Positions 16,732 through 46,669 of a stretch of 53,590 bases of DNA are shown piece after piece. Location: assembly GCA_027858735.1 (NCBI GenBank), contig JAQICC010000052.1, positions 1 through 53,590 of the forward strand. The letters run 5' to 3'. A model generated the notes under the pieces. The model was not told where the DNA came from. It saw nothing but the letters and a program-made list of their open reading frames with translations, and made no database searches. The stretch's first letter is position 1. Each line of letters starts with the position of its first letter. Made by a program: the position numbers and the translations under genes. The stretch comes from Salinivirgaceae bacterium. Its GTDB lineage: Bacteria; Bacteroidota; Bacteroidia; Bacteroidales; SZUA-534.

Positions 16732-18399
16732 ATGAAAATCTCCACTTTTAAAACATTCTCAAGAATCATTTCTGCTTTTATTCTTTTAACTATTAGCTGC
16801 CAGTCTCCTACTCCTGTAAATAATGATTTAACCTTTCTTAAAACCAAAGGTCAATATATGGTAAATGAAATGGGTGATACTGTTTTATTACAAAGTATTG
16901 GGCTTGGCAATTGGCTTTTGCCCGAAGGTTATATGTGGAAATTTGGCAACAATGGCGATAGGCCTCGTAAAATTGAAAAAGTAGTAAGCGATTTAATTGG
17001 AGAAGAACAAGCCAAGGAGTTTTGGACAGCATTTAGGTTGAATTATATTACTGAAGCGGATATTATCAGAATAAAAGAATTGGGATTTAACGCTGTTCGT
17101 CCTGCTCTAAATGCAAGATTGTTTTTAAGCGAAGAAGAAAAACCTCAATTTATTGAGGAAGGTTTTATGCTTTTAGCAAACTTAATAAACTGGTGTAAAA
17201 AACATCAACTCTATGTTATAATTGACATGCATGGAGCGCCAGGCGGACAAACCGGACAAAATATTGACGACAGCCTAAATGATTTGCCAGAATTGTTTAT
17301 GGAAGAAAAGTATCAGGATGCCTTGGTTAAACTTTGGCTTGAAATAGTAAGAATTTATAAAGACGAACCAACAGTGGCAGCTTATGACCTATTAAATGAA
17401 CCTCTACCCGAAAGAACAGGAGCGGCTCAACAATATGGACATTTATTAGAACCCCTCTATAAACGTTTAACAACTGAAATAAGAAAAATTGATGCGAAAC
17501 ACATGATTACTCTTGAAGGAATGAATTGGTCGAACAATTGGAGTATGTTTCATGAACCTTTCGATAACAATACTTTTTACCAATTTCATTACTACTGCTG
17601 GAATAACCCCGACAACTTAAATGATATTAGCTATTTCTTAAAAAAGCGCGACACATTAAACACACCTATTTGGGTAGGTGAAACTGGTGAAAAGGCAAAT
17701 ACTATTTATTGGGGTACAACACAATATTTTGAAAAGAACAATATTGGATGGAGTTTTTGGCCCTGGAAAAAAATGGCCACAAAAAATACTCCATATTCAA
17801 TTAATAAACCTTCAAATTGGGATTCTATTGCAAATTATACCCGAGAGGGAGCCAAACCAAGCAAAGCGTTGGCTGAACAAGCATTTACTGAGCTTCTTGA
17901 AAATATTAAAATTGAAAATTGTGAGTACTATGAAGATGTAACTAACGCTATATTCCGCAGAGTTCCTATAAAAATTGAAGCTGAAAACTATTTGCATGGA
18001 ACATATAATGAAACCTATTTTATAAAAGACACCAGTAAAAAATCAAGTTTGTATCGGACCAATGAATTTGTACCAATTAATTTGCTTTCAGTTGATTCTA
18101 CAAGCCATGGTTGGAAATGGTTTACAGAACAGTACATTACACTTGCTGAAGAAGAATGGGTTAAATATCAAGTTAACAGTGATAAAATTATAAAATGCAT
18201 CGCTACATTAAAAGCCAAAAGCCCCATGGGCTCCTCAGTAAAAATTCAATTAAACGGTTCCGATTATATGCTAGAGATTAATTCTGAAGATTGGCAAGAA
18301 TACAAAATTGAAGACGTCAATTTATCAAAAGGAGTAAATACAATGACGATAAATATTACTAAAAACAGTGCTTATATTGATTGGATAAATATTGAATAA
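16732..18399 (+). CDS. GH5-family beta-glucanase lipoprotein with C-terminal CBM-like module
   Basis: About 555 residues from ATG 16732; the earlier ATG at 16705 would hide the lipoprotein signal. Lipobox LLTIS-C with Cys23, so probably outer-membrane anchored. The (beta/alpha)8 GH5 domain spans ~35-395: WLLPEG, VIIDMHGAPG, acid/base E223 in LLNEPLPE and nucleophile E317 in WVGETGEK. Residues ~410-555 begin IEAENYLHG, the start of a CBM6-like beta-sandwich. Unlike its downstream neighbours it has no T9SS domain, so it belongs to the cell envelope. Relatives include fungal-type exo-beta-1,3-glucanases, and the locus favours action on beta-1,3-glucan oligosaccharides, but GH5 specificity cannot be fixed from sequence alone. 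Confidence 0.87.
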   Translation: MKISTFKTFSRIISAFILLTISCQSPTPVNNDLTFLKTKGQYMVNEMGDTVLLQSIGLGNWLLPEGYMWKFGNNGDRPRKIEKVVSDLIGEEQAKEFWTAFRLNYITEADIIRIKELGFNAVRPALNARLFLSEEEKPQFIEEGFMLLANLINWCKKHQLYVIIDMHGAPGGQTGQNIDDSLNDLPELFMEEKYQDALVKLWLEIVRIYKDEPTVAAYDLLNEPLPERTGAAQQYGHLLEPLYKRLTTEIRKIDAKHMITLEGMNWSNNWSMFHEPFDNNTFYQFHYYCWNNPDNLNDISYFLKKRDTLNTPIWVGETGEKANTIYWGTTQYFEKNNIGWSFWPWKKMATKNTPYSINKPSNWDSIANYTREGAKPSKALAEQAFTELLENIKIENCEYYEDVTNAIFRRVPIKIEAENYLHGTYNETYFIKDTSKKSSLYRTNEFVPINLLSVDSTSHGWKWFTEQYITLAEEEWVKYQVNSDKIIKCIATLKAKSPMGSSVKIQLNGSDYMLEINSEDWQEYKIEDVNLSKGVNTMTINITKNSAYIDWINIE

Positions 18400-18408
18400 A
18401 ATTAGTTA

Positions 18409-18426
18409 TTTCACGTAGGTGTGAAA
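18409..18426. promoter_or_regulatory. Palindrome upstream of the CotH gene
   Basis: TTTCAC-GTAGGT-GTGAAA, a perfect 6-bp inverted repeat with a 6-nt centre, about 40 bp upstream of the -7 element of the CotH gene. The central GTAGGT also occurs twice in the phased repeat at 23784-23814, upstream of the glucanase genes, suggesting one regulator may read both. Confidence 0.4.
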
Positions 18427-18463
18427 CGTACACTTATTGTTATGCATTGATTAAAAATTGTTA

Positions 18464-18471
18464 TATTTTTG
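18464..18471 (+). promoter_or_regulatory. -7 element of the CotH gene
   Basis: TATTTTTG matches TAnnTTTG, 27 bp upstream of the CotH start codon. No -33 box of good spacing is seen, which fits a promoter needing an activator at the adjacent palindrome. Confidence 0.38.
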
Positions 18472-18497
18472 AGGTTTAACCATATAACCTTAAAACT

Positions 18498-20696
18498 ATG
18501 ACACATTTAAAAACTTTCGCAATTGCGTTTTTATTGTTAATCGCAATTTTAGGTAATTCGCAGGTAGTGTTGAATGACACTATACTAAAGTATTTGCCGG
18601 CTACCTCTGAACCACACTCTGAATGGAGAAATCTTGATTTTGACGATTCAAATTGGCAAAATACTTCATTAGGAGATTTTTCAATGAACTGGCATAGTAT
18701 TACAGTAGCAGATTTTCCTATAATTGGTTATGGTGACAGTAATAATGTTAAAATACCAAAAGTTCAAACCTTTTACACAAGGTCTATTGTTCGCTTGAAT
18801 AATCCGAGCGATTATGAGGAGCTCATGATGGTTATTGATTTCGATGATTCATTCGTTGCTTATATAAACGGTGTAGAATTTGCAAGAGCAAACCTTGGGA
18901 AAAATGGTTCCACCACAACTTATGATCAGTTAGCAGACCGATCACATGATTTGCGTGCAATTCAAGGCAGTAATCAAATAGATGTACTTAATGGCTATTA
19001 CATTGACAAGGATTTTATCGATAACCATTTAATTGAAGGAGAAAATGTTCTTTCAATTGAATATCACAACGATAGCATAAATGGCACCGATTTAGGTTTT
19101 TGGGGAGGCGTTGTAATTGACATTACAAATGCTGATTTTAATGTATTTAACCTTCCGTCCAGATATAAAAGATGCATGGAACTTGATTCTACACACTTAC
19201 CCATTATTGTTATTGAATCTGATGAATTTGGAATACCTAAAAAAAGAATTGAAGTATTCGCCACCATTGGTATAATTAACAATGGCAAAGGAAACTACAA
19301 CAAACCATCTAATAGTTATAATGCTCATTTTGGAGATGTAAAAATTGAACTAAGAGGTCAATCATCTGCAGATTACCCAAAAAAATCATACGATTTTGAA
19401 CTAAAAGACCCGGACGGTAAAGACACTAGTATATCACTGTTAGGTTTGCCACGCGAAGCCGATTGGATATTACAAGGGCCCTGGGCCGATAGAAGTCAAT
19501 TTAGAAATGCACTAATTTACGAACTTGGAAGAAAAACAGGTAATTGGTCGCCAAAAGTAAAATTTTGCGAAGTAATTATTAATGGCGAGTATGTTGGTCT
19601 ATATAATTTAATAGAAAAAATCAAAAGAGACTCCAATAGAGTTAACGTTGCCAAATTAAGAGATGAAGAAATTTCAGGAACCGATGTTTCAGGAGGGTAT
19701 ATTTTAAAATATGATAAACCCAATAATAGTACATTTCAAATTGTTTATCCAAAAGATAAAAATATTCAAGATGAACAAGAAACCTACATTCGCGATTTTA
19801 TTGCTGAATATGAGGAAGTTTTGTATTCAAACGAAGGACTTGATGAAGTTGAAGGATATAATAAATATATTGACACTGAATCGCTTATTGATTATATGAT
19901 TATTTCAGAATTGGGAAAGAATTGCGATGCTTATCGCTTTAGTACCTTTTTCCATAAGGATAAGGACGATCGAGACCCACGCTTAAAATATGGACCACTT
20001 TGGGATTTTGATTTATGTTTTGGTAATTCAATTTGGCAAGACGGTTTTAAAACAGACGGCTGGCAATTCGCATACCCCGGTAGTAATGTATTTCATATTT
20101 TACGATTATTTCAAGATCCACTGTTAGTAGATTCCTTTAAATACCGATGGTTTGAGTTAAGAGAAAGTTTTTTGAGTACCGATTCTCTTTTTGCACAAAT
20201 TGATGAACTGGCTCAGGAATTGGAACAGCCGCTCAAAAGAAATTATGAAGTTTGGCCTGTGGTCGATAAGGGTTTGTTCTTTCCCTACTATACTGTTCCA
20301 AATTACGATGAAGAAATAGTGTATATTAAAAACTGGATTTCTGACCGAGTTGTCTGGATTGATGATAATATTGATGATATTTATTATGACGTAACTGACA
20401 TTGAAGATATTCAAGAATTTAATTCATTTCAATTCAAAGCAAACCTTTACCCTAACCCAATGGTTAATGAATTTATTATTGACTTAAACATGCCAAAATC
20501 AGGTATGCTTGGAATTGAAATTATTGATATTACCGGAAAAGTCGTTAGTATTATTGAAAGCTCCTACGTTGATAAAGGCAATTATAAAGTTTACTATAAC
20601 AAAGGAAACGAAGATTTAAAAAGAGGGTTGCACATTGTGAACTTAAAACTAGATGGGAAATCTTATTATCAAATGAAGGTTATGGTTGATAATTAA
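18498..20696 (+). CDS. Secreted CotH-family (kinase-like) protein with T9SS domain
   Basis: 732 residues. Signal peptide 1-21 (FLLLIAILGNSQ). Residues ~22-210 form a galactose-binding-like jelly roll of two halves (WRNLDFDDSNWQNTSLGDF; FDDSFVAYINGVEFARAN). Residues ~235-590 are the CotH domain: KIELRGQSSADYPKKSYDFEL, WILQGPWADRSQFRNAL, GLYNLIEKI, GGYILKYDK and the metal-binding LWDFDLCFGN (D503, D505). The T9SS domain (LYPNPMVNEF...) fills the last ~85 residues. CotH of Bacillus is an atypical protein kinase acting on spore-coat proteins. Here the target outside the cell is unknown; surface proteins of this locus are candidates by proximity only. A long terminator hairpin follows. Confidence 0.88.
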   Translation: MTHLKTFAIAFLLLIAILGNSQVVLNDTILKYLPATSEPHSEWRNLDFDDSNWQNTSLGDFSMNWHSITVADFPIIGYGDSNNVKIPKVQTFYTRSIVRLNNPSDYEELMMVIDFDDSFVAYINGVEFARANLGKNGSTTTYDQLADRSHDLRAIQGSNQIDVLNGYYIDKDFIDNHLIEGENVLSIEYHNDSINGTDLGFWGGVVIDITNADFNVFNLPSRYKRCMELDSTHLPIIVIESDEFGIPKKRIEVFATIGIINNGKGNYNKPSNSYNAHFGDVKIELRGQSSADYPKKSYDFELKDPDGKDTSISLLGLPREADWILQGPWADRSQFRNALIYELGRKTGNWSPKVKFCEVIINGEYVGLYNLIEKIKRDSNRVNVAKLRDEEISGTDVSGGYILKYDKPNNSTFQIVYPKDKNIQDEQETYIRDFIAEYEEVLYSNEGLDEVEGYNKYIDTESLIDYMIISELGKNCDAYRFSTFFHKDKDDRDPRLKYGPLWDFDLCFGNSIWQDGFKTDGWQFAYPGSNVFHILRLFQDPLLVDSFKYRWFELRESFLSTDSLFAQIDELAQELEQPLKRNYEVWPVVDKGLFFPYYTVPNYDEEIVYIKNWISDRVVWIDDNIDDIYYDVTDIEDIQEFNSFQFKANLYPNPMVNEFIIDLNMPKSGMLGIEIIDITGKVVSIIESSYVDKGNYKVYYNKGNEDLKRGLHIVNLKLDGKSYYQMKVMVDN

Positions 20697-20742
20697 ATAT
20701 TGTTTGTGATATTTATAAGATAAATCGTGTAAATTAATAATT

Positions 20743-20796
20743 AAGGTTTCATGAAAAATATAGGCTAGTCTATATTTTTCATGAAACCTTTTTTGT
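20743..20796 (+). terminator. 21-bp perfect hairpin terminator after the CotH gene
   Basis: Two perfectly complementary 21-nt arms (20743-20763 and 20770-20790) around a 6-nt loop, followed by a run of T. The arms begin AAGGTTTCATG and end CATGAAACCTT. Unusually long and perfect for a simple terminator; it separates the CotH gene from the regulator gene. Confidence 0.85.
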
Positions 20797-20798
20797 TG

Positions 20799-20829: not shown

Positions 20830-20837
20830 TTGATAAT

Positions 20838-23738
20838 ATGGGGAAAGGGCAAGTTTTAAAATTATACTACAATAAATCAGCTAAGAGCAAAAAAATCGTG
20901 CTGCTTATTTACCTATGGTGTTTATTTTTCAATCTAGGCGCCCAAAATACCATGTTTGGTATTCCATTTATTACCAATTATACAAAAAACGAAATTGGAA
21001 TATCAAGTCAAAACCATTCCATAGTGCAAGATAGTCGCGGCATAATATACCTGGCAAATGACTACGGTATACTTGAATTTGACGGTTCAAATTGGACCAT
21101 AATACAAAATGCTACCAATGGATCCAATGTTAAATCTTTAGCTATTGATAACAATGATAGATTATATGCTGGGGCTCAAGGCGATTTTGGATATTTAGAC
21201 TATCATGATGAATATAAATTAATTTTTAAATCGCTAATAGATAAAATTCCTGAAAAGTATCGGAATTTTGGTGATGTTTGGCAAACCCATGTTACCTCTC
21301 AAGGAATTGTCTTTCATTCATGGGATGCAACCTATATATACAGTAACGATACCATTCAGGTAATTGATTTTAAAGAGTTAAGCAAGGAATCGTTTTTGGT
21401 TAGAGACACTGTTTATATTCAAGCTCACAATGGATTGTACAAGCTAGATGATGGCAATCTATCAAAGGTTCCTTTCTTAGACTATTTTTCCGATAAAGAA
21501 GTTTCATTTATGTTGCCCCATGGAAATTCCGACTTTTTAATTGGTACCAAATTCAATGGACTTTTTATTGCCAATAAGTTTTCAATAAATCCATTTTCCA
21601 TTAAAGGGATAATACCCCTTAAAAATTTTCAACTGAATAAAGGATTATTGCTTAAAAATGGCAATTTCATTTTAACTACAATTCAAAATGGCATTTTATT
21701 TATTGATTCAAATGGCAAATTGCTTAACTTTTTACATAAATATAATGGTTTGCAAAGCAATGCAGCCAGTAGCCTATTTAGTGATAAATCGGGAAATTTA
21801 TGGTTAGGCTCAAATGGTGTTGATTTTATTGAAACATCTTCCCCTTTTAGTGTAATACATATTAATAAAGATGAAGAACATGCTACCTATGCATCATTGC
21901 GCTTTAATAATAAATTATATGTGGCTACCCATCATGGACTCTATTATTCGGAATGGAGTGAATTGACCAAAAGTCTTGATAAATCTGCAACTTTCAAGAG
22001 ACAGGAAGGGCTTCCTGATATAATCTGGAACTTACAAATTATTGATGACGAATTAATAATTTCAACTGAGATTGGATTTTACCAACTATTAAATAATAAA
22101 ACTAAGCTTATTGCAAAGACAGAAGGAGCTTGGCTACTTCAGAAATTTTCTAACCATAAAAACTTATATTTAGGAGGCACTTATACAGGTTTAGTTCTAC
22201 TAAAAAAAATTAACAATAACTGGTTTTTCCATTCTAACTTAAAAGGTTTTAACGAATCAACTCGAGTTATGGAACAAGACAACCTTGGAAATATTTGGAC
22301 AAGCCATGGCTACAAAGGAACCTTTAAATTAAAAATAAATAACAAATTAGATAGTATCGAGAAAATTTCATTTTACGATATACAAAAGGGATTTCCTTCA
22401 AGTATTTACACAGGTGTTTACAAAATTAATAACGAGCTTGTCTTCACTTCTCAATATGGGTTTTATAAATATGATGACATTGCCGACTCTATGATTATTC
22501 ATCCTTTTTACGGTTCAAAAGTTGGTACAAGTGAACATGTAAGATACTTAAAACAGAACAAGCAGAAAACATGGTACATATATGGTGATGAAACTGGTTA
22601 TATAGAAAAATATGCAGATGGTTCTTATTCGGTTGCATCATCACACTTCAATAAACTTGCAGAATATTATATTCCCGGATTTGAGAATTTTTGGTTCTTG
22701 CCCAATAGCGATGGTATAATTGGAACAAAGCAAGACTTAATTTATTATAATGCAAGTATTAAAAACGACTACAATAAGGCATTCAATTCCTTATTGCGCA
22801 GGGTAGAATGCCCAATTAACAATTCCATTATTTACGACGACCGTTACGAATTCTTATGCGATACAGTTATAAACCAAAATCCAAAAATTGAATATATTTA
22901 TAACAATATTATTTTTAGATTTTCGGCTAGTTTTTATGAAAACATTAAAAATCTTACATTTAGCTATTACCTTGAAGGTTTTGATAAAAATTGGTCGGAA
23001 TGGGGAGCGGAGAACCATAAAGAATACACAAATTTACCTGAGGGGGAGTACACCTTTCGATTAAAAGCAAAGAACATATATAATATAGAAAGTAATGAAA
23101 CTACTTTTACATTAACCATACTTCCTCCATGGTACAGAGAAACCTGGGCGTATATTATATACGCACTGTTATTTATTGGTTTTATTATACTCATATTTAA
23201 ATTACGTGGTATACAGTTACAAAAAGAGAAAACCGTTTTTATTGAAGAACAATTGAAGAAAAGAGAACTACAAGAAGCTAAGCACAGTGAAGAAAAATTA
23301 AAAAATGAGCTTCTAACAAAAAGTACCGAATTAGCTTCATTAGCATCAAATGTTATTTACAAAAACGAGCGTATTTCAGAGATTAAACAAAAACTATCGG
23401 AGCTTACTCCAATTGCAGCCGATAAAGTAAGCAAAAAACTTACAAAAGTACTTGCTTTTATTGAAAACGAATTGGAAGACGATAACTGGGAGAATTTTGA
23501 ATACCGATTTAATCAAGCCCATAATAACTTTATAAAACGCTTTAAAGCAACCTATCCTGAACTTACTCCAAAAGATTTAAAGTTTTGTGCTTATCTAAGA
23601 ATGAATCTTAGCACTAAAGAAATAGCTCAATTATTAAATATGACTATTCGTGGTGTAGAAAATGCCAAATACAGAATTAGGAAAAGAGTTGAATTAGATT
23701 CCAATGATAATTTAACAAATTTTGTAATATCCTTTTAA
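20838..23738 (+). CDS. One-protein membrane regulator: beta-propeller sensor, Y_Y_Y, LuxR HTH
   Basis: 966 residues. Signal/anchor segment (KKIVLLIYLWCLFFNLGAQ, ~18-36); periplasmic two-component-type beta-propeller ~40-670 with repeats such as HSIVQDSRGIIYLANDYGILEFDG and SGNLWLGSNGV; Y_Y_Y domain ~690-765 (YYLEGFDKNWSEWG...YTNLPEGEYTFRLKAKN); one transmembrane helix ~770-790 (WAYIIYALLFIGFIILIFKL); coiled-coil linker; C-terminal LuxR-type HTH ~908-966 (LTPKDLKFCAYLRMNLSTKEIAQLL). It lacks the histidine kinase and receiver of the related hybrid two-component regulators, so ligand binding outside must be passed directly to the DNA-binding domain. Sitting in the middle of the glucanase locus, it is the likely regulator of that locus, sensing beta-glucan oligosaccharides. 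Confidence 0.92.
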   Translation: MGKGQVLKLYYNKSAKSKKIVLLIYLWCLFFNLGAQNTMFGIPFITNYTKNEIGISSQNHSIVQDSRGIIYLANDYGILEFDGSNWTIIQNATNGSNVKSLAIDNNDRLYAGAQGDFGYLDYHDEYKLIFKSLIDKIPEKYRNFGDVWQTHVTSQGIVFHSWDATYIYSNDTIQVIDFKELSKESFLVRDTVYIQAHNGLYKLDDGNLSKVPFLDYFSDKEVSFMLPHGNSDFLIGTKFNGLFIANKFSINPFSIKGIIPLKNFQLNKGLLLKNGNFILTTIQNGILFIDSNGKLLNFLHKYNGLQSNAASSLFSDKSGNLWLGSNGVDFIETSSPFSVIHINKDEEHATYASLRFNNKLYVATHHGLYYSEWSELTKSLDKSATFKRQEGLPDIIWNLQIIDDELIISTEIGFYQLLNNKTKLIAKTEGAWLLQKFSNHKNLYLGGTYTGLVLLKKINNNWFFHSNLKGFNESTRVMEQDNLGNIWTSHGYKGTFKLKINNKLDSIEKISFYDIQKGFPSSIYTGVYKINNELVFTSQYGFYKYDDIADSMIIHPFYGSKVGTSEHVRYLKQNKQKTWYIYGDETGYIEKYADGSYSVASSHFNKLAEYYIPGFENFWFLPNSDGIIGTKQDLIYYNASIKNDYNKAFNSLLRRVECPINNSIIYDDRYEFLCDTVINQNPKIEYIYNNIIFRFSASFYENIKNLTFSYYLEGFDKNWSEWGAENHKEYTNLPEGEYTFRLKAKNIYNIESNETTFTLTILPPWYRETWAYIIYALLFIGFIILIFKLRGIQLQKEKTVFIEEQLKKRELQEAKHSEEKLKNELLTKSTELASLASNVIYKNERISEIKQKLSELTPIAADKVSKKLTKVLAFIENELEDDNWENFEYRFNQAHNNFIKRFKATYPELTPKDLKFCAYLRMNLSTKEIAQLLNMTIRGVENAKYRIRKRVELDSNDNLTNFVISF

Positions 23739-23783: not shown

Positions 23784-23814
23784 GTAGTTTTAACGTAGGT
23801 TAAAGTAGGTTTAA
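23784..23814. promoter_or_regulatory. Three helically phased GTAG-type repeats
   Basis: Three copies of GTAG(T/G)TTwAA-like sequence start at 23784, 23795 and 23805 (units AACGTAGTTTT, AACGTAGGTTA, AAGTAGGTTTAAG), 10-11 bp apart, one DNA turn. They lie in the 247-bp gap between the regulator and the glucanase genes, suiting binding of a multimeric activator. GTAGGT is shared with the palindrome at 18409-18426. Confidence 0.4.
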
Positions 23815-23985: not shown

Positions 23986-24252
23986 ATGGAAAGAATTACT
24001 AAAAAAAATAGGGTTAGCTTGAAAATGCTAAATTTTAAGTACGGCGGATTTATTTTAAATAATATTGCATTATTTAATCTATCAGGTAAAGCTGTTTTCG
24101 AAAAAGACATTTTCATTTACTTATCAAAAAACTCCTTTTCTATTGAGTTACCTAAGCATATGAGCAACGACGATTTACTATTAACAGTATCGACAAGCTA
24201 TGGGCAATACAGCAAACTCATTAATCATTCAACCAAAACAATACAATTATGA
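23986..24252 (+). CDS. Orphan 88-residue T9SS-sorting-domain-like protein
   Basis: Small gene preceded by a strong GGAGG ribosome site (GGAGGTGTAAATG), rare in this window. The product has no signal peptide. From ~residue 22 it reads like the second half of a type A T9SS sorting domain: NNIALFNLSGKAVFEKD, NSFSIELPKHMS, LLLTVSTSYGQYSKLIN, matching the usual 'v.iydlsGk.v' and 'G.Y.v.v...g....k..' strands. The 'YPNP' motif is missing. Its stop overlaps an ATG in frame with the following GH81 gene (ATGA at 24249-24252). It may be a relic of a deleted secreted protein, or a true small coupled gene; without a signal peptide it cannot be an ordinary T9SS cargo. Confidence 0.55.
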   Translation: MERITKKNRVSLKMLNFKYGGFILNNIALFNLSGKAVFEKDIFIYLSKNSFSIELPKHMSNDDLLLTVSTSYGQYSKLINHSTKTIQL

Positions 24253-24338
24253 AACAGCACATGACTGAGATAAATGCTGTGACGAACGATTTGAAGAAGA
24301 ACGAACGCAATCTCAATATGCGCACAAATCTTAAAAGA

Positions 24339-36600: not shown

Positions 36601-39600
36601 TGGTCAGTTGATCCGGTAGAGGCTACCATTTCAGTCAGTGGTATATTTAATGCATCAGCAGTTAATGTGTATACGGTTACTGCTAACGATGGTGGTATTC
36701 AAAATACCATTAACATAACCTCTGAAACTAATGCACGTTTAAACAGAGTTGATGTAACCCCAAAAAACAACTCTGTAAACATTGGGCAAACAATTGATTA
36801 TTCGGTACAAGGTTATGATCAATTTGAAGAAGAATATGTAGCAGGCTATGATTGGTCAACAAGTGGTGGTGGAAGCATTGATGCTAATGGATTATTTTCT
36901 GCGAGCTCCCTTGGAACACATTTTATTACGGCTACTTCTACAAGCGTTTCTCCAACTACTGGCAATTTATCAGGATTAACTGAGATATATGTAATTCAGG
37001 AAAACCTTGCTTTAAGCGGAACTGCATCAGCTAGTAGTGAAATTACAGCCGCATCAAATGCCATAGATAATGATATTATAAGCTACTGGGAAAGTAATGC
37101 TACTGATGATGAAAACATTACTGTTAATTTAGGCACTATGCTTTATTTGTCTCAGGCTAATTTAAATTGGCTATCAGGTGCATTAGACTATGATATTGAA
37201 ATATCAGCCGATGGTTTAAACTGGGTTACCATTTCGGAACAAATAGGCAAGGTTGATGAACTGCGTCTAGACGAAATTAACTTGGTTGCAACAGCAAAAC
37301 ACGTTCGTGTTACAGGTATTTCAAGAAATGGAACCGCCGGTTATAAATTGAATGAATTCCAGGTATTGGGTGAAACCATTCCGGCCGGAAAAGCTTTAGC
37401 AACTATAGTTTTACAAGCAGAAGCCACTACCCTATTTGTTGGCGACGAAACTCAAATTACCGTTTCAGGTACTGATGGTGATGCGGAAGCATTTGCCGTT
37501 GCTCCTACTTATACAAGTACGGGTGGAACAGTATCAACCAATGGAGTATTTACATCGACAACAGCCGGCACATTTACCATTACAGCTACCGATGGTACTA
37601 TTAGCAACACCATTGAAATAACTGTTCAGGCTTTACCTGCTTTAACAACTATTAACTTAACACCTACAGTAGCAAGTATTCAAGTTACTGATACCATTAA
37701 CTTTGTAGCCAAAGGTTTAGACCAATATAGCGATTCAATTGGCATTACTCCTGCTTATAGCACAACTGGTGGCGGTACTATAAACAATGATGGACAATTT
37801 GTAGCAACAAGTGAAGGGGTATTTACCATCACCGTTGAATCAAATGGTATATCAACACAAAGTACAGTTACCATTGTACCTGAAAACCTTGTGTTAAATA
37901 AAGCAATTACGGCTTCATCAGAAGTTCAGCCTGCAAGCAATGCAGTTGATGGTAATTCAGCTTCCCGTTGGGAAAGTGCCCAAACCGATCCTCAATGGAT
38001 TGTGATGGATATGGGTGCTATGCATAAAGTTACTGATGTTATTATCAACTGGGAAGCTGCAAATGCTGAAAACTATACCCTTGATATTTCGGCTGATAAT
38101 AGCAATTGGCAAACAATCGTTAAGCAACAAAATATGACTGAGGGTGCAAGAATCGATTCTATTGATCAAGTAGCATCGGCTCAATATTTGAGAGTTCTTG
38201 GTACAGAACGTACTATTCCTTACGGATACTCTATATTTGAGGTTACCGTTCGTGGTGAAGATTTACCGGGAACTGTAGCACTTAATTCTATGGAGGTTTT
38301 ATTCAACAATGAAATTGCAAAAGTAAATGCACCAATACAATTTATAGCAAATGGTTTTGATGCAGATGACAATCCTTTTGCATTTGCTCCAATCTGGACA
38401 GTAAATAATTCTGATGCTTCTATTAGCACTACAGGTATGTTTACTGCTACAGCAGAAGGTACATTTACAGTTACTGCAACTCAAGGGGCTATTAACAAAA
38501 CGGTTGATATTGAAGTTAGAGCCGCATCGGTTATTTCAACCATAACAATCGATCCTCAAGATCAAGCCATTCGCGTTGGCGATTCAATTCAGTATTCAGC
38601 AATTGCTGTTGACCAATACGATGATACCGTTTCTGTTGATTTAACATGGACATCTAACGGTGGAGGTATTATTGATACTCTTGGAATGTTCAGAGCGAAT
38701 GAAATTGGAAACTTTACAATTTCTGCAAGCACAAGTGATGTAGCAGGTAGCTCAAATGTGAAAGTGTCAAGAGCAAGTCTTGCTAAAAACAAATCTATAA
38801 CAGCTTCATCTGAAGTAACTGAAGCAAGTCTGGCAGTTGATGGTAATTTAACTACACGCTGGGAAAGTGAAGCTAGCGAGCTACAGTGGATTGTGATTGA
38901 CCTTGGTGCAATAAGTTACATTGATAGTGTAAGTATTAATTGGGAAGGAGCATCGGCTAAGAACTATTCGGTACAAATTTCAAATGATAATTTATACTGG
39001 CAATCGGCTTACGAAGCTATTGATAAAGAGGTTGGACCACGTGTTGATAACATCGTTAAAAACATGACAACCCAGTACCTGAAAATTTCTTGTACTGAAC
39101 GTAATACTAATTTTGGTTACTCCATTTACGAAACCGATGTTTATGGTGGTAATGCTCTTGATAGCTTACATGTGGCTTCTATAGCAGTATCAGCAGCAAG
39201 AGACACCGTTCCGGTTACTTATGAACTTCAATTAAACATTGCAGGTTTCGATCAAAATAGTAATCCATTTGCTGTAACTCCTGTTTGGTCTGTTGATAAA
39301 ACAACAGGTTCTGTTTCATCTGAAGGTTTATTCTCAGGCACTGAAATTGGTGACTATGTAATAACTGCAACAGTAGGTACCACAACCAATACATTTAATG
39401 TATATGTAGCGGAACCATCGGTATTGCAAACCCTTGAAATAACGTCTGCAATTGCTTCGCTAAGAGTTGCAAGAACGGCACAATTTGAAGTAGTGGGAAT
39501 TGACCAATACGATCTTGAAATGAAAACAAATGTGGCTTGGGCAACAACTGGTGGTGGAACTATTGATTCTACCGGATTATTTTTAGCTACAACAGAAGGA

Positions 39601-42327
39601 AGCTATATTATTTCTGCAACACAAGACACCATTTCAGCAACTGCGGCGGTGAATGTGTTACCTGAAAACTTGGCTTACGGTAAAACTACAATAGCATCAA
39701 GTGCGGTACAAAGTGCAATATTTGCAAATGATGACGATGTAACAACTCGTTGGGAAAGTTCTGTAGGTGAAGCACAGTGGTTAACCATTGACTTTAATGA
39801 CACTTCACTTATTAAGAGCCTGATTCTTAATTGGGAAACTGCAAATGCTAAAGTGTACAGCATCGACATTTCTGCGGATAATCTTAACTGGCAAACAATT
39901 GCAACTCAAGTAAACATGGCAGCCGGTGTTCGTATCGACACGATACCAATGTACTCTTCAGCACGTTACTTTAGAGTAAATGGATTAGAACGCAATACCG
40001 AATTTGGTTATTCATTATTCGAGGTTGAAGCTTATGGCGATAAACACAGTTCAGCTGTGCTTAACTCAGTGCTTATATCATCTCCTAAAATGGAAATTGT
40101 AGCAAAGTCTTCATTGCAACTTTCTGCAAACGGATTTGATGTTAACTCAAACCCAATTGCCTTCGCTCCTATTTGGGGTGTGATTGGTGCTGATTCACTA
40201 ATTAATACAAGTGGTTTATTTACACCCGTTAAAGAAGGTGACTATTTAATTACTGCATTCAATGGTACTTTAGCTGATACACTTACAATTTCCGTAGTTG
40301 CAGCTCCGGTACTAAAATCAATTACAGTTACTCCAGTTGAACAAACAGTAAACATTGGCAGCGCAATTCAGTTCGCTGCTCAAGGTTTTGATACCAATGG
40401 TGACACTTTAAATGTTGATTATGCATGGACAGTGACAGGTGGTGGAGAAATAACTCAAACCGGATTATTTGCTGCCGATTCAATTGGTGAGTTTACCGTT
40501 CAAGCAAAAGCTGACACCATAGTGGGTACAACAGTGTTTACTGTTATTCCTGAAAATGTAGCATTAAATAGACCTATTGGAGCAACATCAGAAGTTCAGC
40601 CAGCATCAAATGCGAATGATGGTGATGCTGCAACATTTTGGGAATCAGAAGACACAAGTCCGCAATCAATTGTTGTTGACTTTGAAGAAATGTTTAACTT
40701 CTCAGCAGTCAATCTATTATGGACTGGTATTCCAAGTGCATATGAGATTGCCATTTCAGCTGATTCAATTTACTGGCAAACTATTTCATCCATTATTACA
40801 AAAGGCACTAAATCAGGTTATAATTCAAGTGCCCGTTTTGTTAAAGTAACCATGTTAGACAAATCGTTTGAAGGCGGTTACAAGCTTAACACTTTTGATA
40901 TACTTGGTGAAAAAGTTAGCTCGGCAGCAGTGCTTGATTCAATTGCTATTTTGGCTGATACCAATGTTATTTCAACAGCTGAAACCTTACAATTCGTTGT
41001 TGAAGGATTTGATGCCTTTAAAATGCCCTTCGCATTTACTCCTGCATGGAGTGTTACCAACGGAGGTTCAATTACAGAAACCGGAGCTTTCTCAGCATCG
41101 TTACCGGGTACTTATTTAGTAAAAGCCAGCAGTGGAAGTATTGAAGATAGCATCTCAATTATTGTAAACGGAAGTGTATTAACTTCAATAAAAGTTAGTC
41201 CTGCCGATACAAGTATTACTTTAGGCAGTAACATTCAATATAATGCACAAGCTTACGATCAGTCTAATGTGGCAATTGAGGCCGATATTTTATGGAGTAT
41301 TGACGGCGGAGGAACCATAGATACTACTGGCCTATTTATTCCAACAGAGTTAGGCACCTTTATCATTACTGCTGCCTCAAGCAGTGTATCGCCAACTACA
41401 GTTGATATATTTGGTACTGCAAGTGTTACCGTATTTAAAGAAAATCTTGCACTGAATAAAACAATTGAGGCATCAAGCGAAGAATGGCCTGCAATGAATG
41501 CCAACGATGGCGACACTACAACATACTGGGAAAGTACTAGCGATGCTAACCAATGGATAAGCATTGATTTTGCAAAAACTTATACATTCAACAACTTCAT
41601 GTTGTACTGGGAGGCAAATTCAGCTTCATCGTATGCCATAGCTATTTCAGCAGATGAGCAAAACTGGCAAACCATTCTTAGCAATTCAGACATGACTGAA
41701 GGCAAACGTATTGACACTCTTAATACAATTGTTTCAGCTCAGTTTATTAGAGTTAAAGGCTTAGATAAAGTTGCTAATGCCGGTTACCAAATAGCTGAAA
41801 TTGAAGCTTATGGACAAGATGTTTCGGATGATAAAGTTTTATCAACCCTAACTGTTGTTGCTGATGAAACTACAATTAATTCAGGAAGCTCATTACAGCT
41901 TGAAGCACACGGTTTTGATCAAGATGAAATGCCATTTGCAGCTATTCCTGTATGGAATGTTGATAATGATGGACTGATTTCAGGTGATGGAAAATTCACG
42001 GCAACAACTGCCGGAACTTATACTGTTACAGCTAGCAGCAATGGTATTACAGGAACCTTTAGCATAGTAGTTGAAGGCACAGATGTTAACCAATTGTTAG
42101 ACGGAGCGGTATATGTATACGCTTCGAAAAGTGCAATTTATATTAAGAATATAGACTTGAACGAGTTTAGTAATGTTAAAGTTTACAATTCAAACGGTAG
42201 CCTAATTAAGGTTATCGATACCAATTCTGAAACTCTGGAGATTTCAACAGCCGAAATGCAACCTGGAATTTATATTGTTTCGTTATGTGGAAATAGTATA
42301 GTTAATAATAGTGTAGTAGTTGAGTAG
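33625..42327 (+). CDS. Giant non-catalytic repeat protein: ten discoidin and about eighteen Ig-like modules
   Basis: 2,900 residues with no recognisable enzyme domain. Signal peptide 1-25 (FLSLCWGNSAIGQ). The body holds ten discoidin (F5/8 C, CBM32-like) domains, marked by 'RWES...DPQWI.IDLG...NWE.ANA..Y...IS', starting near residues 26, 233, 528, 822, 1125, 1419, 1717, 2013, 2310 and 2606. Each middle one is followed by two Ig-like domains ('GFD....PFA..PTWSV...G..S..G.FTA...GTYTVTA'), giving a ~890-bp repeat; the first and last have one. Some copies are decayed at the consensus tryptophan or arginine (MWVG, FWES). The end (~2820-2900) resembles a T9SS domain but lacks YPNP. Likely a surface multivalent glucan binder, adhesin or scaffold; this role is inference. 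Confidence 0.9.
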   Translation: MKKQLQKVFMLLVFLSLCWGNSAIGQTLVSATASSGTASLAIDGNNATRWESASSDPQWIVIELDKEYTLSRIVIDWEGANAKDYTIDISNDGTSWTTISTQTNMPNMARTDDLTISGDASYVRVYGTARNLTYGYSIWELELYGSPVGQVSTLTSIGLTADKTRLPINSDATITAIGYDQDGYAMATSPTWSTSGGTVASGVFAATTAGVYTITATDGAISNTIDITVTEPELTFTSASASDGAAAGAIDKNYGSMWVGDGNSHQWIYGDLGSLTYVTDLSVYWEGACATKYGVDISADGSIWQNIDSLLNGAPEGRTDNFITNASARYIRIHSIVPRDSAWGYKIWEMVAYGAVNGAITVNSINISSDATSVPANADLQLSLEGFDGSSNPYAVDPTWNVSPTTGSVDADGNFSATAAGTYTVSVSEGGVTSNSLSITATSAQVLGSVVVSPSTANVIIGNDYQFSAQAYDEDGLTMPTSVTWSVNGGGTIDTDGLFSATTLGDYTVTASQSGIDGTATATVKPENVAVGKTALASSAIQTAAWAIDGLAGTRWESAIGDPQWIYIDLGATYTLSDFILNWEGANAEDYTLSISGDASNWQTIYTATGMAAGARIDYITEAASARYVRMHGTARTIPYGYSLYEFETLGVANTSSLASLTVGADATTINITESVPLYSNGFDASADPYATAPTWTVNSTDAIVSTDGIFTSDIEGTYTVTATDGAVSNTIDIQVKGPELTTITISPDPANVDAGTTQQFTATGYDQFSNEIAATFSYAVDGGGTVNSSGLFSATTIGDYILTVNEGAISVTANITVLPGNIAVGNTVTASPAAVQSAANAVDGDANTAWECAAADSQYIYVDLAAVKLLSKVKLNWGAESAKSYTLAISADGTSWHTLHQEANNAVGASISIIPFEACAQYVRLLVRAKNGTIGILLNEFEIYGQDLPAGKVLTTLNVVSPKTVVQVAKDLQIEAHGFDQDDVPFATAPTWSVDPVEATISVSGIFNASAVNVYTVTANDGGIQNTINITSETNARLNRVDVTPKNNSVNIGQTIDYSVQGYDQFEEEYVAGYDWSTSGGGSIDANGLFSASSLGTHFITATSTSVSPTTGNLSGLTEIYVIQENLALSGTASASSEITAASNAIDNDIISYWESNATDDENITVNLGTMLYLSQANLNWLSGALDYDIEISADGLNWVTISEQIGKVDELRLDEINLVATAKHVRVTGISRNGTAGYKLNEFQVLGETIPAGKALATIVLQAEATTLFVGDETQITVSGTDGDAEAFAVAPTYTSTGGTVSTNGVFTSTTAGTFTITATDGTISNTIEITVQALPALTTINLTPTVASIQVTDTINFVAKGLDQYSDSIGITPAYSTTGGGTINNDGQFVATSEGVFTITVESNGISTQSTVTIVPENLVLNKAITASSEVQPASNAVDGNSASRWESAQTDPQWIVMDMGAMHKVTDVIINWEAANAENYTLDISADNSNWQTIVKQQNMTEGARIDSIDQVASAQYLRVLGTERTIPYGYSIFEVTVRGEDLPGTVALNSMEVLFNNEIAKVNAPIQFIANGFDADDNPFAFAPIWTVNNSDASISTTGMFTATAEGTFTVTATQGAINKTVDIEVRAASVISTITIDPQDQAIRVGDSIQYSAIAVDQYDDTVSVDLTWTSNGGGIIDTLGMFRANEIGNFTISASTSDVAGSSNVKVSRASLAKNKSITASSEVTEASLAVDGNLTTRWESEASELQWIVIDLGAISYIDSVSINWEGASAKNYSVQISNDNLYWQSAYEAIDKEVGPRVDNIVKNMTTQYLKISCTERNTNFGYSIYETDVYGGNALDSLHVASIAVSAARDTVPVTYELQLNIAGFDQNSNPFAVTPVWSVDKTTGSVSSEGLFSGTEIGDYVITATVGTTTNTFNVYVAEPSVLQTLEITSAIASLRVARTAQFEVVGIDQYDLEMKTNVAWATTGGGTIDSTGLFLATTEGSYIISATQDTISATAAVNVLPENLAYGKTTIASSAVQSAIFANDDDVTTRWESSVGEAQWLTIDFNDTSLIKSLILNWETANAKVYSIDISADNLNWQTIATQVNMAAGVRIDTIPMYSSARYFRVNGLERNTEFGYSLFEVEAYGDKHSSAVLNSVLISSPKMEIVAKSSLQLSANGFDVNSNPIAFAPIWGVIGADSLINTSGLFTPVKEGDYLITAFNGTLADTLTISVVAAPVLKSITVTPVEQTVNIGSAIQFAAQGFDTNGDTLNVDYAWTVTGGGEITQTGLFAADSIGEFTVQAKADTIVGTTVFTVIPENVALNRPIGATSEVQPASNANDGDAATFWESEDTSPQSIVVDFEEMFNFSAVNLLWTGIPSAYEIAISADSIYWQTISSIITKGTKSGYNSSARFVKVTMLDKSFEGGYKLNTFDILGEKVSSAAVLDSIAILADTNVISTAETLQFVVEGFDAFKMPFAFTPAWSVTNGGSITETGAFSASLPGTYLVKASSGSIEDSISIIVNGSVLTSIKVSPADTSITLGSNIQYNAQAYDQSNVAIEADILWSIDGGGTIDTTGLFIPTELGTFIITAASSSVSPTTVDIFGTASVTVFKENLALNKTIEASSEEWPAMNANDGDTTTYWESTSDANQWISIDFAKTYTFNNFMLYWEANSASSYAIAISADEQNWQTILSNSDMTEGKRIDTLNTIVSAQFIRVKGLDKVANAGYQIAEIEAYGQDVSDDKVLSTLTVVADETTINSGSSLQLEAHGFDQDEMPFAAIPVWNVDNDGLISGDGKFTATTAGTYTVTASSNGITGTFSIVVEGTDVNQLLDGAVYVYASKSAIYIKNIDLNEFSNVKVYNSNGSLIKVIDTNSETLEISTAEMQPGIYIVSLCGNSIVNNSVVVE

Positions 42328-42335
42328 TAATTTTT

Positions 42336-42368
42336 AGGGGAGACAGCAGCAGCTGTCTCCCCTTTACT
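42336..42368 (+). terminator. Terminator after the giant repeat protein
   Basis: Perfect 12-bp GC-rich stem AGGGGAGACAGC (42336-42347) / GCTGTCTCCCCT (42352-42363), loop AGCA, then TTTACT. Begins 8 bp after the stop codon. Two smaller inverted repeats follow before the next gene: AGACC/GGTCT (42388-42402) and the palindrome AACCCTATAGGGTT (42429-42442). Confidence 0.8.
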
Positions 42369-42467: not shown

Positions 42468-44867
42468 ATGAAAATTAAAATCACACTAATTGCCTTTTTT
42501 GCGACATTAATGCTTCAATCATCTGCTCAAGACTATAAGTTGGTTTGGGAAGATAACTTTGATGGAGAAAAGCTTGATACCAAGACATGGTCTGTTGAAT
42601 CTGAAGTAGGCATATGGAATACCGGATCGAACAGTGAACTTCAGCATTACAAGCATGAGAATGTAGAGGTTGGCGATGATGGAGATGGCAATAACTGTCT
42701 TATTATAACAGCAAAAAAAGAAGAATATAACGGTTACGGTTTTACCTCAGGAAAAATTGAATCGAAAGGAAAATTCACTTTTAAATTTGGTAAAATGGAA
42801 GCTCGAATAAAAATACCCGATTTAAAAAATGGCTTATGGCCAGCTTTCTGGACCATTGGGCATAAAGATATGGGTTGGCCTCAGTGCGGCGAAATTGATA
42901 TTCTTGAGATGGGACATGCCGATGGCATTGCTGCAAGTACACAAAACAAACATCACAGTGGTGCTTTGCATTGGGAACATGCCGACAACTATGCTGGTTA
43001 TGGTCGTGCTGAAGAATCTGAAGTTGATTTAAATAATGATTTTCACTTATTCACTTTAATATGGACTGAAACTACTGTTCAAATGTTTTTAGATGACAAT
43101 ACTGAACCGTATTATATAATGGGCATTTCAGGCGACGATTTAGAAGAGTTCAAAGAATACCAAATGTTTTTGATTTTCAATTTGGCTGTTGGTGGCCAAT
43201 TTCCTGGCATTTATGATGCGGCTGACCTTACAGCACCTTTGCCTGCTAAAATGTATGTTGACTATGTTAAGCTATACCAGCTAGAGGGAAAAGAAGATTT
43301 CACAACGACAGCTCCTGTTATTGGGAACTTTGGAGCTTATGCAGAAACGAGTTCGAATTACCAAAAGCTTGATTTTAACTTCGATGGTGAAATTGAAACA
43401 TCAAATTTAACTAAAAATAATAATGAAACTCCCAAAGAAGGAACTCAGGTACTTGCATACAATACAATTGCGAATGAAGAATTTACGCTAAAAGTTAGAT
43501 CTATCTCTTCATTAAATATGACCAACCAATCTGAAGGTGGAATCAGTCTTTATATAAAAACAAATATTTCAGAAGATATTCAAATAGGAATTGCTGATAC
43601 AGATGGCAATAGCAGTTTTGTATTACTAAGTGAAAGTGGCAGTTTCAATCCTTCAAGAGACGATGTATGGAGCAGAATTACACTACCCATGGAACATTTT
43701 GCAGGTTCTGTTGATTTAACAAAAATTAAAGACTTTTTAATCGTTAAAGGTAGCTCTGCAAATTCTAGCAAGCTATCTATTGACAATGTTATATGGATGG
43801 AAAGTATATTAAGTGCTGATTACTTAGGCATTTTTACAGAAAATACTAACATTACCGAAAATGTAATTATAGGTGAAAACTCTGTATCGCTATATATTTG
43901 GGAAAACTCGCTTGCTACGCTCGATAATGTAACCCCTTTCGAAGGTGCCGGCACACTAGCTTTTAGCGACAATGGTATGGGATGGTACGGATTTGGAATT
44001 TTTTCGGAAAATGGTATTGATGCAACAGCTTTTCAAAACGGATATTTAATTTTCACCTTAAAAACTAAATCGAACTCTAATTTTTGGATAGGTATTGGAG
44101 GGACCAATCAAACAGAAGGTAAAATAGTATTTAACAAGGGTACCGATCCTTATAACTTTGAACGAAATGGTGAATACCAAACTCTGGTTATTCCAATTTC
44201 GGATTTTAACGATAACTGCATTGCAACCATAGAAAAAGATTTAGATTTATCGGCCTGTGGAAATATATTAATGTTTGGAGGTGATAGTGGTTTAACAGAA
44301 ATTTCAATTGATGATGTTTATTTATCAAAAACAGAAACACCCTTAGAGAATCCCTTAATTCTTGAATTAACTACCCTACAGATAAGTCCGAAAAATAAAA
44401 CCATAGCTATTGGCGAGAGTATACAGCTATATGCTAAGGGTTTAGATCAATTTGATGGAACCATCGACATTGAACCGGAATGGTCATCAGATAATGATGG
44501 TTTTATAACTGAGGCGGGTGAATTTGTTGGAGTAACAGTCGGAACCTTTTCAATAACAGCCAAATACGAAGACATAATGGGTACAACTTCGGTTGAAGTA
44601 ATTGAGGCAACTTCGGCAAAACAAAACAGTAATACTACTTTTATGGTCTATCCAAACCCAGCTCACAACCAAATTACCTTTGAAAGTAAAGAACCTATTG
44701 CATCTATTCAAATATTTGATGTTACAGGCAAACTAGTTCATTCTCAAAATTGCTTATTTGAATTAAAAACTACGATGCAAGTAGGTGATTTAACAAAAGG
44801 TATTTACATTGCTAATATTCTATTAAAAGGAGGCAATACAATGCTTAACAAATTTATATTAAACTAA
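42468..44867 (+). CDS. Secreted GH16 laminarinase-type endo-beta-1,3-glucanase
   Basis: 799 residues. Signal peptide 1-20 (ITLIAFFATLMLQSSAQ). GH16 domain ~22-270 with the catalytic signature GEIDILEMG (nucleophile E142, D144, acid/base E147; the beta-bulge form typical of laminarinases), W-rich subsites LWPAFWTIG, HHSGALHWEH, and DDNTEPYY. Next are two beta-sandwich regions, ~290-445 and ~450-625 (FNFDGEIETSN; ISIDDVYLSK), that resemble carbohydrate-binding modules of the CBM4/9/11 type but are not assignable, then an Ig-like BIG2 domain ~630-710 and a T9SS domain (VYPNPAHNQI). Hydrolyses beta-1,3 (or mixed-linkage) glucan outside the cell. 44 bp upstream of the GH128 gene. Confidence 0.94.
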   Translation: MKIKITLIAFFATLMLQSSAQDYKLVWEDNFDGEKLDTKTWSVESEVGIWNTGSNSELQHYKHENVEVGDDGDGNNCLIITAKKEEYNGYGFTSGKIESKGKFTFKFGKMEARIKIPDLKNGLWPAFWTIGHKDMGWPQCGEIDILEMGHADGIAASTQNKHHSGALHWEHADNYAGYGRAEESEVDLNNDFHLFTLIWTETTVQMFLDDNTEPYYIMGISGDDLEEFKEYQMFLIFNLAVGGQFPGIYDAADLTAPLPAKMYVDYVKLYQLEGKEDFTTTAPVIGNFGAYAETSSNYQKLDFNFDGEIETSNLTKNNNETPKEGTQVLAYNTIANEEFTLKVRSISSLNMTNQSEGGISLYIKTNISEDIQIGIADTDGNSSFVLLSESGSFNPSRDDVWSRITLPMEHFAGSVDLTKIKDFLIVKGSSANSSKLSIDNVIWMESILSADYLGIFTENTNITENVIIGENSVSLYIWENSLATLDNVTPFEGAGTLAFSDNGMGWYGFGIFSENGIDATAFQNGYLIFTLKTKSNSNFWIGIGGTNQTEGKIVFNKGTDPYNFERNGEYQTLVIPISDFNDNCIATIEKDLDLSACGNILMFGGDSGLTEISIDDVYLSKTETPLENPLILELTTLQISPKNKTIAIGESIQLYAKGLDQFDGTIDIEPEWSSDNDGFITEAGEFVGVTVGTFSITAKYEDIMGTTSVEVIEATSAKQNSNTTFMVYPNPAHNQITFESKEPIASIQIFDVTGKLVHSQNCLFELKTTMQVGDLTKGIYIANILLKGGNTMLNKFILN

Positions 44868-44911
44868 AATTGTTTACACTTTTAATAAATAATTAAAAAA
44901 CACTTTATATA

Positions 44912-46669
44912 ATGAAAACCACGCTACTATTATTACTTATTACCTTAACAACAATTGTAGGCTCATCTCAAACAAAAAGTTTTAAAAGAGGCATTTGTGG
45001 GGATACTTCACCAGAAGATTTGGCAATATTATCACCCTATATAAGCTGGTACTACGATTGGGGAGTTGAACCACCTGCAATATCACAAGGAGAATTATCG
45101 GGCATTGAATGGGTGCCCATGCAATGGGGAGGGATTGGTGCCGACCAAGTTGAAAATATTAAATCAAGAATTATTGAAGGTAGTTTATATTTGCTTGGTT
45201 TTAATGAACCAAACTTTAGAAGTCAAGCCAATATTACACCACAACAAGCTGCCGAAATGTGGCCATATATTGAAGAAATTGCTGCCGACAAAGGATTAAA
45301 ATTAGTAAGTCCGGCAGTAAACTGGTGCGGCGATTGCGTTGATGGTGTTACTTATGATCCTACTGATTGGCTCGATAAATTTATTGCAGCTTATCCCGAT
45401 GCCCATTTCGACTATATAGCCATTCATAGTTATGCCCCCTATTCTGCAGCTTTAAAAAGCTATATTGATATGTTTCGGAAATACAACAAACCTCTTTGGA
45501 TAACTGAATTTGCACCATGGGATGCTCCAAAACCTGATTATGCAGGCGTTGTTCAATATATGAAAGAAACTATTCCTCTTGTAGAGGCCGACACCAGTGT
45601 TTTTCGCTATTCGTGGTTTGCAACGCGTGTAAGTTCAAATCCCGATATTGATTTATTGGGTGCCAATGGGGAATTAACAAAACTGGGTAAACTTTATGCC
45701 ACAATGCCTTTTGAAGGTTCATCTATTGATAATATTGATCCTATTGCCTTTCTTCCAAGTGAGAAAAATATTAATTTACCTACAACTAAAGTCGTAATTC
45801 CCGGCAATACTTATTATCCAAACGAAGATGAATTAAGCATCGAATGGTCTCAAATTTCAGGCCCTAGTCAAGCTACTTTTAATGATTTAAGCATTGCAAA
45901 GCCAACTATTTCAGATTTAGAACTTGGAACTTATGTATTTCAAATGACTGTAAATGCCAATGCCAAATCTGACAATGCTCAAATAACCGTAGTAGTAAAT
46001 GGGGAAAATATTGCAAAACACAAACCTGCTAAATCTTCAAGCAATCAGGATGGTAATCCCCCCTCAAATGTAAATGATGGAAATCTAAGCACACGATGGT
46101 CTTCTCTGGATTCAGACCCTCAGTGGATTGAAATTGATTTGGAAGGCACTTACCATTTAACAGGTACCAAAATAGAATGGGAAACTGCCTATGCAAAAGT
46201 TTACTCTATTGATATATCAAAAGACGGTGATAATTGGACTTCTGTTTATGAGACCTCAAGTGGCGAGGGTGGATCTGCCGGTTTCTCTTTTAATGATACT
46301 GCAAACTATATTAGAATGTACTCAACCCAGCGAAATACTCAAGAACAATGGTGGGGTAATTCAATTTGGGAGTTTGAAGTTTATGGAAGTGAGATTGAGA
46401 CTAGTTTAATTGAAAGCTTATCTCAGAATCAACATTTCAATATCTTTCCTAATCCTGCAACTAATTTAATAACTATTAAAACATCTGAACTCCATGGGCA
46501 AGCAAAACTTAATATTTTTGACAGTTGCGGCAGAATGATTTTTGTGCAACAAAACAATCTGGACAAAAGCATTAATACTATTGACATAAGTTTTTTACAA
46601 ACAGGAATTTACCTAATTACAATTAGCAATAAAGCAGGTATTTACAAGCAACATTTTATTAAAAAATAA
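44912..46669 (+). CDS. Secreted GH128 endo-beta-1,3-glucanase
   Basis: 585 residues. Signal peptide 1-20 (LLLLLITLTTIVGSSQ). Residues ~22-270 are a GH128 (Glyco_hydro_cc) TIM barrel: KRGICGDTSPED start, acid/base E99 in LLGFNEPNFRSQANITPQQ, nucleophile E199 in LWITEFAPWD, and FRYSWFATR. This family cleaves beta-1,3-glucans. Then a K319/PKD-like Ig domain ~275-370 (IEWSQISGPSQATFNDL), one discoidin domain ~371-495 (TRWSSLDSDPQWIEIDL), closely similar to those in the GH81 and giant proteins, and a T9SS domain (IFPNPATNLI...). Last gene of the glucanase cluster, followed by a terminator. Confidence 0.93.
   Translation: MKTTLLLLLITLTTIVGSSQTKSFKRGICGDTSPEDLAILSPYISWYYDWGVEPPAISQGELSGIEWVPMQWGGIGADQVENIKSRIIEGSLYLLGFNEPNFRSQANITPQQAAEMWPYIEEIAADKGLKLVSPAVNWCGDCVDGVTYDPTDWLDKFIAAYPDAHFDYIAIHSYAPYSAALKSYIDMFRKYNKPLWITEFAPWDAPKPDYAGVVQYMKETIPLVEADTSVFRYSWFATRVSSNPDIDLLGANGELTKLGKLYATMPFEGSSIDNIDPIAFLPSEKNINLPTTKVVIPGNTYYPNEDELSIEWSQISGPSQATFNDLSIAKPTISDLELGTYVFQMTVNANAKSDNAQITVVVNGENIAKHKPAKSSSNQDGNPPSNVNDGNLSTRWSSLDSDPQWIEIDLEGTYHLTGTKIEWETAYAKVYSIDISKDGDNWTSVYETSSGEGGSAGFSFNDTANYIRMYSTQRNTQEQWWGNSIWEFEVYGSEIETSLIESLSQNQHFNIFPNPATNLITIKTSELHGQAKLNIFDSCGRMIFVQQNNLDKSINTIDISFLQTGIYLITISNKAGIYKQHFIKK

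Follow-up and report, generated by a model that had tools for sequence, protein, structure and literature searches.

A cluster of multimodular cellulases that is secreted by the type IX secretion system (T9SS) and lacks a SusC/SusD importer pair has been reported from Candidatus Paraporphyromonas polyenzymogenes (PMC5831590), and CotH proteins reportedly occur in cellulosomes, where their role is described as unclear (PMC12484212, PMC8665504). Here, we analysed a putative beta-1,3-glucanase locus (positions 16,732 to 46,669) of a Salinivirgaceae bacterium. The window covers contig JAQICC010000052.1 from end to end (assembly GCA_027858735.1; 53,590 nucleotides; contig C315 below), and the genome comprises 5.99 Mb in 452 contigs with a completeness of 98.9%. 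The locus probably represents the outward-facing, secreted arm of a system for degrading beta-1,3-glucan whose import step lies elsewhere in the genome, and one of its enzymes appears to carry a binding-domain insert derived from a tandem repeat. In kind it is a putatively secreted T9SS cluster without SusC/SusD, set apart by a circularly permuted F5/8 domain, a giant F5/8 protein and a CotH gene.

Domains were called with Pfam at its curated cut-offs, and T9SS tails also with NCBIfam. A preliminary description had listed a GH5 enzyme, two GH81 enzymes, a GH16 and a GH128 enzyme beside a sensor/regulator, and Pfam recovered all of them (Table 1), the two GH81 catalytic domains scoring 147.8 and 127.8 bits against a cut-off of 25.6. 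The CotH gene and the giant protein had been left out of it. Its statement that all these families act on beta-1,3-glucans does not stand for GH5: since this family is polyspecific and, among solved structures, a putative beta-xylosidase scores best (9ku5, 107 bits; exo-1,3-glucanases in the PDB reach about 39 bits), a beta-1,3-glucan activity of the GH5 enzyme is unsupported. The further statement that most of the proteins are T9SS cargo with stacked binding modules proved true for four of the five enzymes (GH81a, GH81b, GH16 and GH128), whose tails exceed the Pfam cut-off. The exception is GH5, in which Pfam found no T9SS tail and whose N-terminus looks like a lipoprotein signal with a lipobox. 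The tail of the CotH protein falls just below the Pfam cut-off (26.1 versus 27) and above that of NCBIfam (23.8 versus 23), and the tail of the giant protein falls below both (21.2; 18.2 in another scan). SprA, a core protein of the secretion system and the sole component searched for, is encoded on contig C1 (SprA_N, 531.9 bits). Tailed carbohydrate-active enzymes (CAZymes) and secretion machinery occur in the same genome, and the tailed proteins would be exported by this machinery.

Across the genome, the SusC model TIGR04056 gave 55 matches (25 above cut-off) and the SusD model PF07980 gave 23. None of the 55 or of the 23 lies on C315, which holds no adjacent pair, and models trained on 21 SusC and 21 SusD sequences of the same genome found no match within the window either. 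The absence of SusC/SusD, first noted across 30 kb, therefore applies to the entire contig. The locus does combine co-located CAZymes with a regulator, as in a polysaccharide utilization locus (PUL). A genome search for a laminarin-type pair was positive: on contig C205 (10,115 bases), genes for a regulator of the type found in the window, SusC, SusD and GH16 follow one another. The nearest solved relatives of this SusD are 6gcz (209.9 bits, nearly the whole length) and then 7kv2/7kv3 (122.3 bits), which makes its closest relatives beta-1,3-glucan-binding SusDs; 6gcz is described as GMSusD, a laminarin-binding protein from Gramella, and 7kv3 as a complex with laminarihexaose (PMC11351036). In the alignment, the C205 protein keeps W287 and W323 of the three key tryptophans of GMSusD. 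Glucan import is likely handled by this pair, and the preliminary proposal of a secreted attack with uptake elsewhere finds support in the T9SS tails together with the C205 set.

The lack of SusC/SusD had also been implied to be special, and this part of the preliminary description did not survive comparison. GH81 occurs in 19 of 393 sampled genomes of the order, this one included, and in 1 of 20 genomes of the family, namely this genome (the other 19 lack it). From the 18 other genomes we compared 20 regions, each 4.6 to 20 kb long and surrounding GH81 genes. Within the examined stretch, SusD was present in 2 regions (L073 and L084) and absent from 18; among the 15 regions of at least 19 kb, 2 had SusD. 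SusC was found in 1 of the 20 and CotH in 1 (L071), and a T9SS tail was found on 18 of 20 distinct GH81 open reading frames (ORFs), the other two ending at a contig end. We therefore rejected the absence of SusC/SusD as a distinctive trait, as it is ordinary in the order and a T9SS cluster of this kind has reportedly been published (PMC5831590). A count of T9SS tails in Flavobacteriaceae loci (1 of 29) was also rejected as evidence because those loci end about 1.5 kb after the match. In the order, attack on beta-1,3-glucan is usually organised apart from a SusC/SusD importer, so that PUL finders that demand the pair, a criterion given in PMC11573768, would miss most of the order's GH81 loci. 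As a separate observation, L071, L086 and L087 contain another GH81 subgroup, in which the catalytic C-domain starts near residue 500-520 versus about 320-350; the extra part gave no F5/8 match.

The genome has five GH81 matches: two on C315, two on C212 and one on C311. Contig C311 (L015, 327-14871) carries a second T9SS beta-1,3-glucanase cluster with GH81, GH64 and GH16, all tailed and with CBM6/CBM35 modules, and no SusC/SusD was found on this 16 kb contig. A third cluster on C212 (L014, 309-11120) consists of CotH, GH81, a GH2/GH72-like enzyme and GH81, and partly parallels L071 from another family. SusC/SusD is absent from the contigs of all three GH81 loci. Elsewhere in the genome, four GH16 genes lie side by side on C226 (L004, 6292-13993).

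The unusual feature of the locus is what appears to be a complete F5/8 domain circularly permuted inside the GH81 N-terminal domain of GH81a. Against the F5/8 model, residues 263-353 align with positions 24-116 and residues 367-407 with positions 1-41, so the C-terminal half comes first and the two reversed halves jointly cover the family model. With a model trained without GH81a, the C-half scored 89.5 bits (positions 31-120) and the N-half 21.6 bits (4-40), and the best of 200 shuffles scored 7.4; a normal F5/8 domain swapped in silico gave the same split pattern. The insert is present in 3 of 93 distinct GH81 genes (in 90 of the 93 ORFs, 250 or more residues precede the GH81 C-domain): GH81a and homologues from Tamlana sp. 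I1 and Polaribacter sp. IC066, both about 70% identical to GH81a over the aligned part. These three form one clade with a support of 1.0. The closest insert-free relatives (L131 and L132, with 51% and 50% identity in the C-terminal part) align straight through the site, and in the family of Polaribacter the insert type occurs in 1 of 397 sampled genomes, that of Polaribacter itself.

Across the junction of the tandem F5/8 pair at the C-terminus of GH81a, the stretch between the midpoints of the two domains aligns collinearly with the insert. The simplest origin is therefore that one repeat length was cut, out of phase, from a tandem F5/8 array; such a piece, running from mid-repeat to mid-next-repeat, would have been inserted into the GH81a N-terminal domain and left circularly permuted there. 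A literature search for a naturally permuted or inserted discoidin or CBM domain found none by title, and we take the absence no further than titles. The insert and its insert-free relatives offer a concrete case of tandem binding-module repeats seeding a permuted domain inside an enzyme. In the Tamlana locus (L001, 14001-23132), the permuted GH81 gene is followed by integrase-like and phage tail-like genes, as judged by eye, which hints at mobility.

The giant protein has 2,900 residues, with F5/8 (CBM32-like) domains starting at residues 30, 238, 537, 832, 1135, 1430, 1727, 2024, 2320 and 2616. Its repeat units are 29-48% identical at the protein level, and TRF detected no tandem DNA repeats in the gene. 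Pfam found no catalytic family in it, and the protein may act as a multivalent glucan-binding anchor. In the PDB, the F5/8 domains of GH81a, GH128 and the giant protein (searched with its first 292 residues) are nearest to modules of Paenibacillus chitosanase/glucanase whose entries are titled chitosan-binding. The F5/8 domain of a Paenibacillus beta-1,3-glucanase (LamA) is reported to bind laminarin, chitin, lichenan and cellulose (PMC2789033).

CotH gave 14 matches in the genome, corresponding to 13 genes (two matches on C123 were counted as one). A CotH gene adjoins GH81 in the window, on C212 and in L071, which belongs to another family of the order. In an alignment of 13 rows, some of them partial and with two duplicates dropped, D503 is conserved in 10 of 10 covering rows and D477 in 9 of 10; conserved aspartates of this type serve kinase activity. 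A PDB search with the CotH protein gave nothing at 0.001. On another contig (C118; L177, 847-11290), a CotH gene lies two genes downstream of a SusC-SusD pair. The position of CotH next to putatively secreted glucanases provides a second setting for the question of what these proteins do with polysaccharide-degrading enzymes.

Regarding regulation, the hairpins at 20744-20789 and 42336-42363 point to three or more transcription units. The repeats at 23784-23814 read GTAGtTTtA / GTAGGTTaA / GTAGGTTTA (full set GTAGNTTNA), with spacings of 11 and then 10 bp, and as a candidate regulator site they provide a lead. The motif GTAGGTTTAA, the core of these repeats, is common to the upstream regions of GH81a and of the C205 SusC gene, the latter having a single copy (L003:3520). 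Because it occurs 5 times in 304,838 examined bases of the genome, the C205 match being one in 338 bases, this sharing is suggestive only. Promoter-like sites showed no excess over shuffled sequences.

Table 1 Features of the putative beta-1,3-glucanase locus in the window.
Feature	Coordinates	Strand	Description
GH5 enzyme	16732..18399	+	PF00150, 98 bits; likely lipoprotein signal; weak C-terminal CBM6-like region; without T9SS tail
CotH-kinase protein	18498..20696	+	PF08757, 201 bits; T9SS type A tail; D477 and D503 present
Terminator-like hairpin, 20 bp stem	20744..20789	+	Between CotH and regulator genes
One-component membrane regulator	20838..23738	+	Reg_prop propeller, Y_Y_Y, transmembrane helix, weak LuxR/sigma-4-like helix-turn-helix
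Three direct repeats	23784..23814	+	Upstream of GH81a; candidate regulator site
GH81a	24249..28574	+	GH81 (PF17652), two C-terminal F5/8, CBM6, T9SS tail
Circularly permuted F5/8 domain	25035..25460	+	Residues about 263-404, within the GH81 N-terminal domain of GH81a
GH81b	28660..33612	+	GH81 (PF17652), Big_2, two F5/8, T9SS tail; without insert
Giant non-catalytic protein	33625..42327	+	Ten F5/8 alternating with Big_2-like domains; unit of about 297 residues; weak T9SS-like tail
Terminator-like hairpin	42336..42363	+	After the giant gene
GH16 enzyme	42468..44867	+	PF00722; nearest solved relative is laminarinase PtLam (8xph); T9SS tail
GH128 enzyme	44912..46669	+	PF11790; PKD-like, F5/8, T9SS tail

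The GH5 ORF spans 16705-18399, and the ATG at 16732 is the start used in the preliminary description. The true start of GH81a is likely near 24339. An 88-codon ORF at 23986-24252 overlaps its first possible start and is probably no gene; it is faintly T9SS-tail-like (E 0.011 among 95 ORFs) and has no Pfam or NCBIfam match. Outside the locus, the window encodes a subtilase (S8) of 3,062 residues that combines HYDIN/ASH-type Ig domains with a T9SS tail (3739-12927), and a 388-residue adenylate kinase that contains two stretches of the ADK family (50833-51999).

In the reading we favour, the T9SS would export the tailed proteins of the locus, and the exported proteins would keep the cells and the enzymes attached to insoluble beta-1,3-glucan of fungal-wall, curdlan-like or algal type, with the giant protein as the multivalent anchor. 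Endo-cleavage would then free laminari-oligosaccharides, which the C205 SusC/SusD pair would take up. An insoluble substrate fits GH81, GH128, the GH64 of the sister locus and the stacked binding modules, and soluble laminarin is compatible as well. Several points weigh against this reading. The C205 SusD has another residue in place of the third GMSusD tryptophan. At 30% identity, the regulators of C205 and of the window resemble each other no more than they do regulators from other genomes, so that co-regulation of the two loci is weakly suggested. The export of the giant protein is uncertain because its T9SS tail is weak, and the F5/8 modules may not bind glucan since their nearest structures are chitosan-binding modules. 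In addition, the glucanase and binding roles are predicted from sequence. The likeness to the Paenibacillus modules would also suit a fungal cell-wall target of glucan and chitosan or chitin, in which the F5/8 modules bind the chitosan or chitin and the enzymes cut the glucan. The presence of GH81 plus GH64 in the genome is consistent with such a target, as is a cited paper whose title states that a chitosanase needs its discoidin domain to bind fungal walls. However, no chitinase or chitosanase was found among the window proteins scanned, and CBM32 specificity is not fixed by family likeness, the LamA module reportedly binding several polysaccharides (PMC2789033); we consider this target possible but do not favour it. 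We consider it unlikely that the locus arose from an ordinary laminarin locus by a rearrangement that removed or relocated its SusC/SusD pair, with soluble laminarin as the substrate and the secretion of large enzymes incidental. Such an origin is suggested by Polaribacter sp. IC066, in which the neighbours of the GH81a orthologue comprise a SusD gene truncated at the contig end, GH16, GH128, GH30 and a same-type regulator (named by matches, except GH30, by eye), showing that the same enzyme occurs in both arrangements, and by the two order regions that keep SusD. On the other side, the 18 order regions without SusD give no sign of ancestral adjacency in the order, and of the three GH81 loci in this genome, none with SusC/SusD on its contig, one has GH64.

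The insert raises its own alternative, namely that its two halves are unrelated, or a remnant without function, and do not form one folded F5/8 domain. When the halves were swapped in silico, neither GH81a nor Tamlana yielded one continuous match, because about ten model positions are common to both halves. AlphaFold2 modelled the whole of GH81a poorly (mean predicted local distance difference test score, pLDDT, 38.5), and the insert reached a mean pLDDT of 56.5, with the C-half largely in the 80s and the N-half below 50. These results count against one permuted domain. Nevertheless, the halves jointly span nearly the whole model, the arrangement is conserved in three species, and the swapped Polaribacter halves gave one match over positions 10-119, so we consider the alternative very unlikely. 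The confident part of the insert model matched the chitosan-binding module 4zxe in Foldseek over 97 columns (43% identity, TM score by target 0.62). Going beyond the secreted arm that we favour, the T9SS, in place of dockerins, might build a glucan-degrading surface assembly in which the giant protein is the multivalent anchor, an exported CotH kinase modifies its partners and GH81 grips glucan beside the active site via the permuted domain acquired from a tandem-repeat junction, but we hold this to be improbable.

Compared with the known systems, the locus shares with Ca. P. polyenzymogenes adjacent T9SS-tailed multimodular hydrolases, one lipoprotein enzyme and a cluster without SusC/SusD, whereas the target is cellulose there and, as predicted, beta-1,3-glucan here, and the giant F5/8 protein, CotH and the permuted domain are extras of this locus (PMC5831590). 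The genome of Ca. P. polyenzymogenes is reportedly without any SusC/SusD-based PULs (PMC5831590), unlike the present one with 25 SusC above cut-off and 23 SusD. The chitin utilization locus of Flavobacterium johnsoniae is similar in that its key multimodular enzyme is described as fully T9SS-secreted and a sensor/regulator lies inside the locus, but it has two SusC/D pairs where this locus has none (PMC5127042). Cellulosomal CotH likewise accompanies extracellular polysaccharide-degrading enzymes; it is reported to be tied to dockerins, whereas the window CotH is tied to T9SS (PMC12484212, PMC8665504), and the locus proteins gave no Pfam match to dockerin or cohesin at E 0.001. Finally, the C205 SusD is a relative of GMSusD (6gcz) at 209.9 bits over nearly the whole length, and differs in that it sits off the window contig and has one of the three binding tryptophans changed (PMC11351036).

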